Below are positions 21,898 to 25,110 of a stretch of DNA of 64,000 nucleotides, one piece after another. The notes beneath the pieces were generated by a model that saw nothing but the letters and a program-made list of their open reading frames with translations, was not told the DNA's origin and did not search any database. The stretch lies in contig NZ_JAULRU010000797.1 in assembly GCF_030518155.1 (NCBI RefSeq), positions 62,001 to 126,000 of the forward strand, read 5' to 3'. The stretch comes from Gilvimarinus gilvus. GTDB lineage: Bacteria > Pseudomonadota > Gammaproteobacteria > Pseudomonadales > Cellvibrionaceae. Position numbers and translations under genes: made by a program. Position 1 is the stretch's first letter, and the number at the start of each line of letters is the position of its first letter.

Positions 21898-22044
21898 TTG
21901 GCTGGTCATTGGTGCTGTTGCGAATCAGAGACTTTTCTTGGGATTAACTCACAAGCGCAGGCGATGGCATAGTCGGTAGATGCTTGATACACCTATGAGT
22001 ATTTGGTGTGTGAGAGCCCTTGATTTCCTATAATAGGTCCGTTT

Positions 22045-22235
22045 CGCCGGGCGGGCGAGCTACTTCTTTGGTGAGCAAAGAAGTAGCCAAGAAACTCACC
22101 CCGGAGATCCCGCCCTTCGGGTTCCCTCTCTCCAGCCTGTTTTTGCGGGCCGCATCGACAGGCCATCCTGGCCAGACGATGCTTGTGCGCACGTCCTGTG
22201 CGCGTACCCCCAAAAAGCAGGCCTCCGTTCAGCTG
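22045..22235 (+). repeat. structured interspersed repeat, copy 1
   Basis: About 190 bp shared with copy 2 (24751-24944, opposite strand). It contains four stems: H1 CTACTTCTTTG/CAAAGAAGTAG (22060-22086); H2 22136-22149 with 22207-22221; H3 GCATCG/CGATGC (22152-22182); H4 GCGCAC/GTGCGC around loop GTCCT (22187-22203). Stem sequences differ between copies but pairing is kept. Short frames across it are incidental. The rest of 21898-22511 holds only an 8-bp-stem hairpin GCCTTACA/TGTAAGGC at 22279-22307. Confidence 0.85.
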
Positions 22236-22511
22236 GCTCTACGGGGAAGCTTACGACGGAACTTCGCAGCAGCCTAAAGCCTTACACTTTGATGTGAAAT
22301 GTAAGGCCTGCCCCGCATTCCTCAGGCAAACGGTGACGAAGAGCAAAGCATTATTGATAGTAGAACCGCCCAGGATTTTCCATGTAAGGTGTATTTATGC
22401 CGCATTCAAATACCTTCCACTGATTACACAGCCTTAGTCAAACAAGCGTTGTAATCGACGCCTGTATAAACACTCTAAATCGCCAGCATGCAGCGTCATT
22501 GCCAAATGACA

Positions 22512-22970
22512 TTATTTATTTTTAGATTCGTAGATCGCAAGTATTTGACGGATATACTCCGCATAATACACGTCCTTTCGTTTTGACAAATCGACAAACT
22601 CTTCCCTGCTATCAACATCTGTGGTTTCAATGAACACACCACAATAGTCAACCTTGTTCGATCCGTACAAAAAGATGAGATAACTATAACCCAAAGCAAC
22701 GGGGTCATATGGTGGAGTGCTGTAAGTGGTTAGCTTTACCGGAGTCTTCAAATTTCCTTTCAACACGAGTGTGGGCTCAACAATGAACTCCATATCGCTC
22801 TCATACTTCTTTGATTTGTTGACCCTACCTTCTAAAACCTTGCCAAAGAATATTTCAGTAGCGTATTCATAGTGAGTTTCCAATGAGAATTTATCTCGAT
22901 CATACTTGCCGCACTCCCAAGCGCTTACGGAATGAGAGATAGCACACACAAGAAGAAACACCAAAACCTT
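22512..22970 (-). CDS. small secreted protein with NTR/TIMP-like pattern
   Basis: A 152-residue exported protein from ATG 22970 (signal peptide MKVLVFLLVCAISHSVSAW). The mature part begins ECGKYDR, then ATEIFFGKVLEGRV, FIVEPTLVLKGNLK, and SYLIFLYGSNKVDYCG. This Cys ... vFxGkV ... f.v...KG ... YL.f ... CG order resembles bacterial netrin/TIMP-like (NTR) domains. That assignment is by pattern only. An upstream in-frame ATG at 23003 would displace the signal peptide. Confidence 0.6.
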   Translation of the reverse strand, partial: KVLVFLLVCAISHSVSAWECGKYDRDKFSLETHYEYATEIFFGKVLEGRVNKSKKYESDMEFIVEPTLVLKGNLKTPVKLTTYSTPPYDPVALGYSYLIFLYGSNKVDYCGVFIETTDVDSREEFVDLSKRKDVYYAEYIRQILAIYESKNK

Positions 22971-23050
22971 CATATAACCTAATACTCCGATAAAGAGCAT
23001 CACTCTTAATCCATCACAGGACCCAACCCCTGAACCTCATCATTAACACA

Positions 23051-23089
23051 TCGGAGAATGACACAAGATAATAACTTAAACGACTCTGA
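23051..23089. repeat. degenerate REP-like palindrome C
   Basis: TCGGAG (23051-23056) and CTCTGA (23084-23089) can pair with one G-T wobble around a 27-base AT-rich centre. It resembles the arms of the elements at 19425 and 20247 but is more diverged. It lies between two minus-strand accessory genes. Confidence 0.4.
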
Positions 23090-23103
23090 CTCGAATGATT
23101 TTG

Positions 23104-23586
23104 CTATATCCTAGGCTTTTTAACAGGTACGTATATGTCTAGTACGGATTCAGGATTGGCTGGCCCTTTAAAACGCGAATCATACCTTTCAAAATCATAC
23201 TCTCCAGCAAGCTCGTACCCAGAGTTTGGAAGCCATTGCTTGTAAATGTTCTGAAATAGTTCACCTAGCTCTGGACCAACAACTCCCTTGTACTCGAATA
23301 CGGCATATTGATTTGAAGGAACAGAAATCAACTCCATACCATCTGGTATATTGTCTGTTTTACTCACTTCTAAGCCTGCAGTATATTTCCACTGCCCTTG
23401 CTTCATAAGTTCTTTAGAGTAGGACTGAACTCCATAAGCCACATCCATTCCTACCTTGCTAGGTAATTCCGAGTTACGCTCAAATAGTACAGGCCATGTT
23501 TTTCCGAAGCTTCCATCCGCTGGCGACCCTGCCACTTGAACGCCAACTATATTTAGAGAGTCTAAATTTACAAATTTTGGTTTCAT
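23104..23586 (-). CDS. GyrI-like small-molecule-binding (AraC effector-binding) domain protein
   Basis: A 160-residue stand-alone effector-binding domain. It begins MKPKFVNLDSLNIVGVQVAG, as family members do, then FGKTWPVLFER and GMDVAYGVQSY. The C-terminal half has VPSNQYAVFEYKG, then the helix ELGELFQNIYKQWLPNSGYEL, DFERYDSRF and a closing DIYVPVKK, all landmark GyrI-like elements. Family roles include DNA gyrase inhibition and multidrug sensing; which applies here is unknown. The frame is open to 23628, but the family N-terminus favours 23586. Confidence 0.85.
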   Translation of the reverse strand: MKPKFVNLDSLNIVGVQVAGSPADGSFGKTWPVLFERNSELPSKVGMDVAYGVQSYSKELMKQGQWKYTAGLEVSKTDNIPDGMELISVPSNQYAVFEYKGVVGPELGELFQNIYKQWLPNSGYELAGEYDFERYDSRFKGPANPESVLDIYVPVKKPRI

Positions 23587-23675
23587 TGTGTCGCTCGCTT
23601 GTTCGTATTGAATAGGTAGAAATGCCAATCAAATTCGCACTTAAAAATAGTTTTTATAGTTCAAACCTCGGTGAA

Positions 23676-23756
23676 AGATAACGCCGGTAACACACGGCCG
23701 ATTTTGTGGAGGCGAAGCCGGAACAAGATTGGCTCGGGTGCTTACCTTTGTTAGAG
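23676..23756 (-). other. integron attC recombination site
   Basis: Read on the minus strand: R'' CTCTAAC (23756-23750), 4-base spacer, L'' GTAAGCAC (23745-23738), an imperfect stem region with a GGCTTCGCC tip, L' GTGTTAC (23693-23687), 4-base spacer, R' GTTATCT (23682-23676). L'' and L' pair except for one extra G in L'', the extrahelical base typical of attC bottom strands. The stop codon TAA of the gene at 23751 is part of R''. Confidence 0.9.
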
Positions 23757-24387
23757 CACATATTCGTTCACCCCAAGGACGATCGCGAACAAAGCCAAAA
23801 AATAGGGAGCGATGTAACTGGAAAAACTCGGTTGCTCTATGATGCAAGCAACAACTAACCTCAATGCGACGGACCAACCCTTGAACCCACTAAGGCTAAC
23901 TGTTTCTCTCAACCCTCCATCTACAGGACCTTGACCTTGAATACTCCCCAAATCTTGTCTATTCAAAGCCTTTTCCATCACGAATGCCTTCAAACAACCT
24001 TCATGCCATCGTAACCACTCAATGATCATGCCTGTTTCTTTGGGTTGTTTAACTGCTACTTGTGGAGCTAGAGGGTGGCCTATCGAGTCTTCGATGAAAC
24101 TTCTAAAGAAACGTTTATCTCGCATACGATTGATCTCTTCCCTGAACTCCTTCGAAAAGACTGAGCGATTTACAACCCAGTATCTGTACAAAAACCAAAA
24201 AAATAACAGCCAGGCAATAACAATCAACACTTCAGGGCGACTAAAAGATACAGAAATCACCTGCAGGCGAACTTCATCTGTCGGAGTAGATGCTCCACCA
24301 AGAATGAAAACAATAAAACTCAGGGAAATCAGCAATAGATTCCTTCGTTCCGGACTTGAATCCTGTATCGCCATAGATTCGCTCTAA
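23682..24387 (-). mobile_element. single integron gene cassette (706 bp)
   Basis: One gene plus its attC, bounded by recombination points G|TT at both ends. The 5' end reads G|TTAGAGC (minus strand, crossover between 24388 and 24387), 13 bases before the start codon. The 3' end reads GGCG|TTATCT (between 23682 and 23681). When circularised, the cassette's R' would be GTTAGAGC, the exact reverse complement of its R'' GCTCTAAC, which fixes both borders. No integrase, attI or second attC is seen in the window. Confidence 0.88.
23751..24374 (-). CDS. cassette-encoded membrane protein of unknown function
   Basis: A 207-residue protein not recognised as any family. It has two N-terminal hydrophobic segments (NLLLISLSFIVFILGG; VLIVIAWLLFFWFLYRYWVV), a charged middle (FSKEFREEINRMRDKRFF...), and two C-terminal segments (WSVALRLVVACII; YIAPYFLALFAIVLGV). 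This makes it probably a four-helix inner-membrane protein with a cytoplasmic or periplasmic centre. The start is 13 bases inside the cassette border with only a poor ribosome-binding site, as in many cassettes, which are usually promoterless. Stop codon overlaps the attC. Confidence 0.75.
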   Translation of the reverse strand: MAIQDSSPERRNLLLISLSFIVFILGGASTPTDEVRLQVISVSFSRPEVLIVIAWLLFFWFLYRYWVVNRSVFSKEFREEINRMRDKRFFRSFIEDSIGHPLAPQVAVKQPKETGMIIEWLRWHEGCLKAFVMEKALNRQDLGSIQGQGPVDGGLRETVSLSGFKGWSVALRLVVACIIEQPSFSSYIAPYFLALFAIVLGVNEYVL

Positions 24388-24653
24388 CAGCTGATTAAAA
24401 TGCATGGCCACATATAGACACTGTGCCTACATATAGGCATAAATATCCAAATATAACCACTCAGTGGGTACCCCTACAACTCATTATTCATGTGCCACTT
24501 AGATCTAAAACTTGAGTCAACCAAAGAAAGGGAAGTGCCTACACCACTCCCGATGCGCCTAGATACCTTCCAAATGGTCAAATTTACAGATATTACCGAA
24601 CCCCAAGCGATTCAGCTTATCCTGCAAAACACTTTAGGAGAAGAGTGCCATGG

Positions 24654-24679
24654 GCTAACCCGTTTGGCAACGGGTTAGC
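24654..24679. repeat. perfect 11-bp hairpin
   Basis: GCTAACCCGTT, loop TGGC, AACGGGTTAGC. It lies just before the first of two 30-bp direct repeats flanking structured repeat copy 2. No T-run. Nothing else in 24388-24650 could be supported as a gene; a 62-codon frame at 24490-24678 ends inside this hairpin. Confidence 0.7.
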
Positions 24680-24998
24680 GTCTGATGTCGGACGTCTGAA
24701 GCCTGATGCAAAAGATCAAACCACGCTACGGAGCACCAAACGCCCCATTACAGCTGAGCCGAGCGGAGGTTTATTTTAGCGGGTAAGCAAACAGGACGTT
24801 TGCGCAAGTATCGTCAGGCCAAGGACGGCCTGTCGATACGGCCCGCTAAAATAAACCAGAGCGAGGGAACCCGAAGGGCCAGTTGCGGGTGAGTTTCTTG
24901 GCTACTTCTTTGCTCATCCAAAGAAGTAGCTCGCCCGCCCGGCGATAGAGGGCAAAAGGAAATAAATTGTCTGAAGTCGGACGTCTGAAGCCTGATGC
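24680..24998. repeat. 30-bp direct repeats bracketing structured repeat copy 2
   Basis: 24680-24709 and 24969-24998 are 29/30 identical (GTCTGA(T/A)GTCGGACGTCTG onward to GCCTGATGC). They bracket a ~260-bp interval that contains structured repeat copy 2. This could be a duplication from insertion, or independent low-complexity repeats, since each unit itself contains a repeated GTCTGA(A/T)G motif. Confidence 0.75.
24751..24944 (-). repeat. structured interspersed repeat, copy 2
   Basis: Inverted copy of 22045-22235. Stems (minus-strand reading): H1 CTACTTCTTTG/CAAAGAAGTAG, identical to copy 1 (24902-24929); H2 a perfect 16-bp stem (24768-24783 with 24842-24857, GGTTTATTTTAGCGGG); H3 GTATCG/CGATAC (24808-24839); H4 GCAAAC/GTTTGC around the same loop GTCCT (24787-24803). 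With copy 1 it brackets about 2.5 kb of accessory genes in inverted orientation. Confidence 0.85.
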
Positions 24999-25110
24999 CA
25001 GACAGACAATCTAAAGACCGCACCGCGTAATCCATCCCCCCATGACGCAATCGCCAATCCATCGTACAATCCCCATATTCACTCGAATATGGGGAGGGCT
25101 TTGGCCATTT

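Follow-up and report, generated by a model that had tools for sequence, protein, structure and literature searches.

The RNA family TwoAYGGAY (Rfam RF01731), in which two apical hairpins with GGA loops stand on an outer stem, was described in 2010 from the human gut, gammaproteobacteria and Clostridiales (PMC2864571). A role with CsrA was proposed for it in 2014 from a motif match, and a tandem-GA stem was reported in the same paper (PMC4333381). Hairpin loops of the A(N)GGAX kind, 5-6 nt in length, are also found in the Csr/Rsm antagonist RNAs (CsrB, RsmX, RsmY and RsmZ), which have several GGA hairpins each. RsmE is known to bind such stem-loops in RsmZ (PMC4005645), and one antagonist RNA can occur in multiple copies per genome, as seen with RsmX1-5 in P. 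syringae and RsmZ1-7 in Azotobacter (PMC7366521). Here, a pair of inverted repeats from Gilvimarinus gilvus is compared with these systems. The window, that is, the whole stretch of DNA analysed, comprises 64,000 nt of contig NZ_JAULRU010000797.1, and all coordinates are positions in it. Labels beginning with G and L denote the genomes and loci of the data set.

In a first-pass annotation, the pair was taken as two inverted copies of an element of ~190 bp. The inverted arrangement is real, but that size was too short, as each element measures about 230 nt and runs from the 5' boundary CTACGAAG to the 3' boundary GGGCA (Table 1). The two copies share 82% identity (BLAST). The ends are sharp, since similar copies at different loci diverge just outside them, for example, the L137 pair with 97% identity over 237 bases. 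The fold comprises an outer stem with tandem G.A mismatches, two apical GGA hairpins, a CCC/GGG hairpin and a further hairpin, H1. For each copy, the predicted fold beats all 200 dinucleotide shuffles (z of -6.59 and -3.28). The individual stems had been read correctly at the first pass: H1 is common to both copies; H3 is GCATCG/CGATGC in one and GTATCG/CGATAC in the other; H4 is GCGCAC/GTGCGC versus GCAAAC/GTTTGC around the loop GTCCT; and H2 of copy 2 is a perfect 16-bp stem.

Two copies alone are insufficient to prove covariation, which three larger alignments establish. In an unfitted MAFFT alignment of 16 own-genome copies, 38 of 62 pairs showed a double change and 89.3% of the cells were paired, against 72.8% in the shuffles, none of 500 of which was as high, and at most 49.3% when the alignment was slid; one proposed outer helix pairs poorly (58.9%). 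A covariance model of 214 positions, termed R1, was built from 15 own-genome copies. The alignments fitted to it, which are hence biased toward its structure, showed a double change in 45/53 pairs with 94.2% paired (115 distinct Gilvimarinus matches) and in 52/53 pairs with 92.5% paired (67 elements from 42 genomes, i.e. 41 numbered ones, including that of G. gilvus, and Pseudomonas mangrovi). H1 itself covaries in 8 of its 12 pairs among the 115 matches. The covariation grew stronger, not weaker, as copies were added, and the earlier suggestion that the fold is under selection as a single strand was right. As judged from these alignments, the ~230-nt fold is kept by compensatory change.

The strand favoured at the first pass was, however, the wrong one. 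The complement of copy 2 as first read matches RF01731 with 49 bits, the gathering score being 43. All ten full own-genome copies that were searched match this family, and on one strand only; three of them lie above the gathering score (48, 49 and 50.6) and seven below it (37.7-42.6, copy 1 having 37.7). The likeness to widespread uncharacterised gammaproteobacterial repeats was right in that the repeat is dispersed, but incomplete, an RNA family already described making up its core. The same strand is indicated by the wobble pairs. G.U outnumbers A.C by 29:7 in the unfitted alignment with the poor outer helix excluded, by 214:36 in the 115 fitted Gilvimarinus matches and by 107:51 in the 67 elements across genomes, and this excess marks the TwoAYGGAY strand as the selected one. 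GA stands opposite GA in 99 of the 115 matches. On the evidence of the aligned sequences, the selected single strand is that of TwoAYGGAY, the complement of the one first read, be it as RNA or as single-stranded DNA.

The loops were then counted in the 115 Gilvimarinus matches. Leaving aside six matches without hairpin 1 and six with long inserts in it, GGA is present in 101 of its 103 assessable loops, 90 of them being strictly A(N)GGA, and in 91 of 93 loops of hairpin 2 (79 strictly so) once the 22 matches with long inserts there are dropped. The first loop has a length of 5 nt (68) or 6 nt (34), while the second is mostly 6 nt long (86). The commonest first loop, AGGAC, is one base shorter than AYGGAY, and the commonest second loop is CATGGACG. 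Hairpin 1 is closed by a C-G pair in 94/107 matches, as are the RsmZ stem-loops to which RsmE binds (PMC4005645). A(N)GGAX loops on a C-G closing pair, a mark of Csr/Rsm antagonist RNAs, are present here, the figure for the closing pair being that of hairpin 1.

Table 1. Coordinates of the two elements and their parts in the window; the strand is that of the TwoAYGGAY reading.
Feature	Position	Strand	Basis and remarks
Copy 1, whole element	22036..22269	-	RNA 5' end at 22269; R1 match 22041-22251 stretched to the end motifs
Copy 1, apical hairpin 1, loop AGGAC (H4 of the first pass)	22187..22203	-	Sequence reading and fold
Copy 1, apical hairpin 2, AGGAT loop (H3 of the first pass)	22152..22182	-	Sequence reading and fold
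Copy 1, H1 hairpin	22059..22087	-	Sequence reading and fold
Copy 2, whole element	24726..24954	+	RNA 5' end at 24726; R1 match 24740-24948 stretched to the end motifs
Copy 2, match to Rfam RF01731 TwoAYGGAY, 49 bits	24761..24864	+	
Copy 2, stem P1, 5' side (H2 of the first pass), partner 24842-24857	24768..24783	+	Fold and covariation
Copy 2, stem P1, 3' side	24842..24857	+	Sequence reading and fold
Copy 2, apical hairpin 1, loop AGGAC, GGA 24794-24796	24787..24803	+	Sequence reading and fold
Copy 2, apical hairpin 2, loop AAGGAC, GGA 24823-24825	24808..24839	+	Sequence reading and fold
Copy 2, short CCC/GGG hairpin (P4)	24870..24878	+	Sequence reading and fold
Copy 2, H1 hairpin	24901..24930	+	Sequence reading and fold; covariation, also across genomes

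Compared with TwoAYGGAY, the Gilvimarinus element has the same core on the same strand, with both GGA hairpins on the outer stem, and the tandem-GA stem is present as well. Unlike in the Rfam model, which has neither H1 nor the end motifs and is classed as cis-regulatory, this core sits at the apex of a longer repeat that recurs tens of times in a genome. The Csr/Rsm antagonist RNAs resemble the element in their loops and in having several copies per genome (PMC7366521). They differ in that the Gilvimarinus unit has only two GGA hairpins, is dispersed in 14-43 copies without a conserved promoter, and is only predicted to bind CsrA. The MRSC-65-2 motif is likewise a structured repeat with covariation, dozens of copies per genome and inferred mobility; it is nevertheless a different element, with a single long stem and a UYCCGG repeat (PMC11109978).

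In the genome of G. gilvus, R1 has 38 matches with E of 0.01 or less, the weakest of which are short. BLAST with copy 1 gives 26, five of them being the inverted H1 arm of copies already counted. Seven congeners have 14-43 R1 matches each, while matches were found in 2 of 11 genomes from other genera of the family and in 2 of 10 others of the order. In a sample of 274 gammaproteobacterial genomes, RF01731 was matched in 18 and R1 in 49; as only 8-9 candidates per genome were scored, the copy numbers there are lower bounds. Fourteen control genomes had no RF01731 match, and R1 was run without such a control. By eye, and mostly at one locus each, H1 was seen after the core in 11 of the 18 genomes that match RF01731, and in seven it is not there. 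Phages, plasmids and viral contigs gave no match, either with queries from the own clade or with an H1 pattern. Also, a contig of an uncultured Clostridia member (L246), matched by an own-genome pattern, had no R1 match.

Some variants in sequence and arrangement were observed as well. In the own genome, a second subfamily (L006, L007, L016, L017, L019, L021) has GGAAAA...TTTTCC with a GGGA loop as hairpin 2, adjoining a hairpin 1 of the CATGGACG type. In Pseudomonas mangrovi, the R1 matches form three divergent pairs. In a distant family (G158 and G269; L065-L069), the elements are likewise arranged as divergent inverted pairs, several of which surround a shared central stretch of ~95 bases.

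The copies are mostly intergenic and biased to the 3' ends of genes. With neighbours called by a simple purpose-made gene caller, 62 of the 115 Gilvimarinus matches have both neighbours on the first-pass strand, 18 lie between convergent genes, 17 between two genes on the RNA strand and 6 between divergent ones, and 12 lack a called neighbour; only 4 overlap a called open reading frame. The gene at the RNA 3' end is on the first-pass strand in 84 of the 110 copies for which a neighbour was called on that side. A terminator-like structure abuts this end in 34 of 104 copies (11 of the 115 being omitted because a flank or the 3' motif was lacking); the control stretches gave 7, 7, 2 and 14 of 104, and shuffling gave 7/104. 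The copies share descent, and so the count is not one of independent events. Such placement would suit an element that is co-transcribed with the upstream gene on the first-pass strand and affects termination or mRNA decay in the manner of repetitive extragenic palindromic (REP) sequences. We consider this unlikely, as the excess of G.U over A.C and the tandem G.A mismatches both point to the opposite strand, and the copies are related by descent.

The A-rich RNA 3' end abutting the T-runs of terminators would also be expected if the element were copied by target-primed reverse transcription at these runs. The first-pass annotation had advised a search for a linked transposase or reverse transcriptase. 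For the latter, the outcome was mixed: RVT_1 matches were found in 6 of 15 genomes, two of them in the own genome, and none in the other nine element carriers, including G277 (43 copies) and G275 (23 copies). Moreover, no series of 5' truncations was seen, nearly all R1 matches being full-length on the model. Retro-copying is thus very improbable.

The main rival to a regulatory RNA is a DNA element that moves by its fold. It would be non-autonomous and similar to miniature inverted-repeat transposable elements (MITEs) or REPs, and its fold would serve movement: a transposase provided in trans would read the hairpins in single-stranded DNA, with the GGA loops as recognition marks. That the copies are numerous and sharp-ended, in flanks unrelated to each other, would fit it, and so would their clustering (69 neighbour pairs within 6 kb, where ~8 are expected, among 179 matches in six genomes). 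A single-stranded DNA substrate would yield strand asymmetry too, promoter conservation is not seen upstream, and the apex can be swapped while the scaffold and H1 persist. Against this, genes for Y1 transposases are present in 14/15 genomes but absent from G280, which has 23 copies, and R1 matches occur in just one of 15 regions around Y1 matches (36 listed). No target duplication is evident on reading the flanks, and the loops closely fit a known RNA-protein site. This explanation is, therefore, possible but doubtful.

Several routes of mobilisation were examined and rejected. The search for a linked transposase gave no linkage to REP-associated tyrosine transposases (RAYTs): among the 15 regions around Y1_Tnp genes, R1 matches are found only in L200, both more than 1.5 kb off, and a different inverted repeat, GGGGTCAGG..., frames the two RAYT loci of Gilvimarinus that were read completely (L196, L197). 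In these loci (2223-3167 of L196, 2494-3414 of L197), the inverted repeats GGGGTCAGGCCTTACATTT... and GGGGTCAGGTCTTGAATTGTGAATTC frame Y1-transposase (RAYT-like) genes. Words related to them were seen upstream of some copies of the element, e.g. L107 and L131. The element shares with REP/REPIN and other dispersed palindromic repeats of gammaproteobacteria the many, often clustered intergenic copies; it differs from them in its multi-stem fold without RAYT linkage. A composite transposon carrying the three genes between the window copies as cargo is also not indicated, as neighbour pairs 600-6000 bp apart are oriented almost at random (16 tandem, 14 divergent and 10 convergent). Terminal inverted repeats exist in just 7/115 copies. 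A clean empty site for copy 1 was not obtained: the similarity to G. algae stops at 22014, ~20 bp before the element is reached, and is not regained within the compared region.

The apex is exchangeable. R1 also recovers elements that keep the outer scaffold and H1 yet lack the GGA hairpins (e.g. in G123, G112, G153, G057 and G229), their apex reading CTGTTTGAGCG...GCGAGTT or a near variant (L261, L262, L272, L286, L287, L290). For ten loci with such an alternative apex, Rfam yielded no match with E of 0.1 or less; of four distant loci of the GGA type, one had an RF01731 match, below the cut-off. In Gilvimarinus, the scaffold consists of the CTACGAAG end, the tandem-G.A stem, the CCC/GGG hairpin, H1 and the GGGCA end. 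It may tentatively be proposed that these are members of a gammaproteobacterial superfamily of mobile structured elements with one scaffold and an exchangeable apex, the GGA apex being a Csr/Rsm plug-in and the other apex serving a different partner. If so, TwoAYGGAY would be carried as cargo by a mobile RNA element instead of being a small RNA on its own. The long inserts in hairpin 2 (22/115 Gilvimarinus matches) are part of another kind of variation, in which apical loops contain ~40-100 bases of the AAGGTGAATG...AGAGAGGG...CAGCCTGGGCTG type (L013, L014, L018, L020 and others); these look like a second small repeat.

It is suggested that both copies belong to a dispersed, mobile-like structured element whose selected single strand is that of TwoAYGGAY. 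When transcribed, each RNA would present to one CsrA/RsmA dimer its paired hairpins, the GGA triplets of which are 29 nt apart in copy 2, and the copies would jointly titrate CsrA in the way of the RsmX/Y/Z RNAs. Such a CsrA sponge, predicted from sequence and fold, is the best single reading, and we give it about an even chance. csrA is present in the own genome as well as in each of the 18 class-sample genomes that match RF01731. Several observations weigh against the sponge. The 18/18 co-occurrence is only weakly unlikely by chance (~6%), and R1 shows no association with csrA, which is found in 43/49 R1-positive genomes and 235/274 overall. Elements of the GGA type occur in G038, G099, G164 and G187, where csrA was not found, although these assemblies are incomplete (73-87%); the other R1-positive genomes without a detected csrA are G123 (95%), which has the alternative apex, and G224 (complete), with a single weak match. 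Among the elements compared across genomes, just 48/67 have a short GGA loop in hairpin 1 and 54/67 in hairpin 2. No conserved promoter was found upstream of the RNA 5' end in 63 copies, and as the gene at the RNA 3' end mostly lies on the first-pass strand, read-through from it would make the strand without TwoAYGGAY. A CsrA sponge and a DNA mobility driven by the fold could both hold.

Other features of the window were noted around the pair. Degenerate GTCTGA(T)GTC-NGACG arrays lie at 24680-24709 and 24969-24999, and similar arrays stand beside many own-genome copies, on one or both sides. Between the two copies, the DNA is AT-rich (GC 0.40-0.44 over 22500-24500, against 0.51-0.61 nearby). 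Three small genes lie there on the - strand, and one of them is GyrI-like/Cass2 (23104-23628). A search of the gene between the copies against viral contigs found no link. The Cass2/GyrI-like match prompted a look for an integron cassette, which was rejected: a simple pattern search found no RYYYAAC...GTTRRRY attC pair in 21901-25100, the integrase match of the own genome is partial (84 bits, cut-off 265), and neither this genome nor G277 has an integron integrase above the cut-off, while six congeners have one.

The CsrA link of TwoAYGGAY is not new, having been predicted since 2014 (PMC4333381); in the excerpts of the TwoAYGGAY literature that were found, no test of it is reported. What is new is that the Rfam motif makes up the apex of a ~230-nt element with sharp boundaries and an additional covarying hairpin, H1, and that this element, 3'-end-biased beside terminators and repeated 14-43 times in each congeneric genome, is matched in 49 of the 274 gammaproteobacterial genomes, some genomes having its scaffold under another apex. 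A little-studied RNA family is now tied to an abundant genomic repeat, and the defined strand, ends and hosts make direct tests feasible in culturable marine bacteria. If CsrA does bind the element, tens of sites in each genome would connect a dispersed repeat to a global post-transcriptional regulator.

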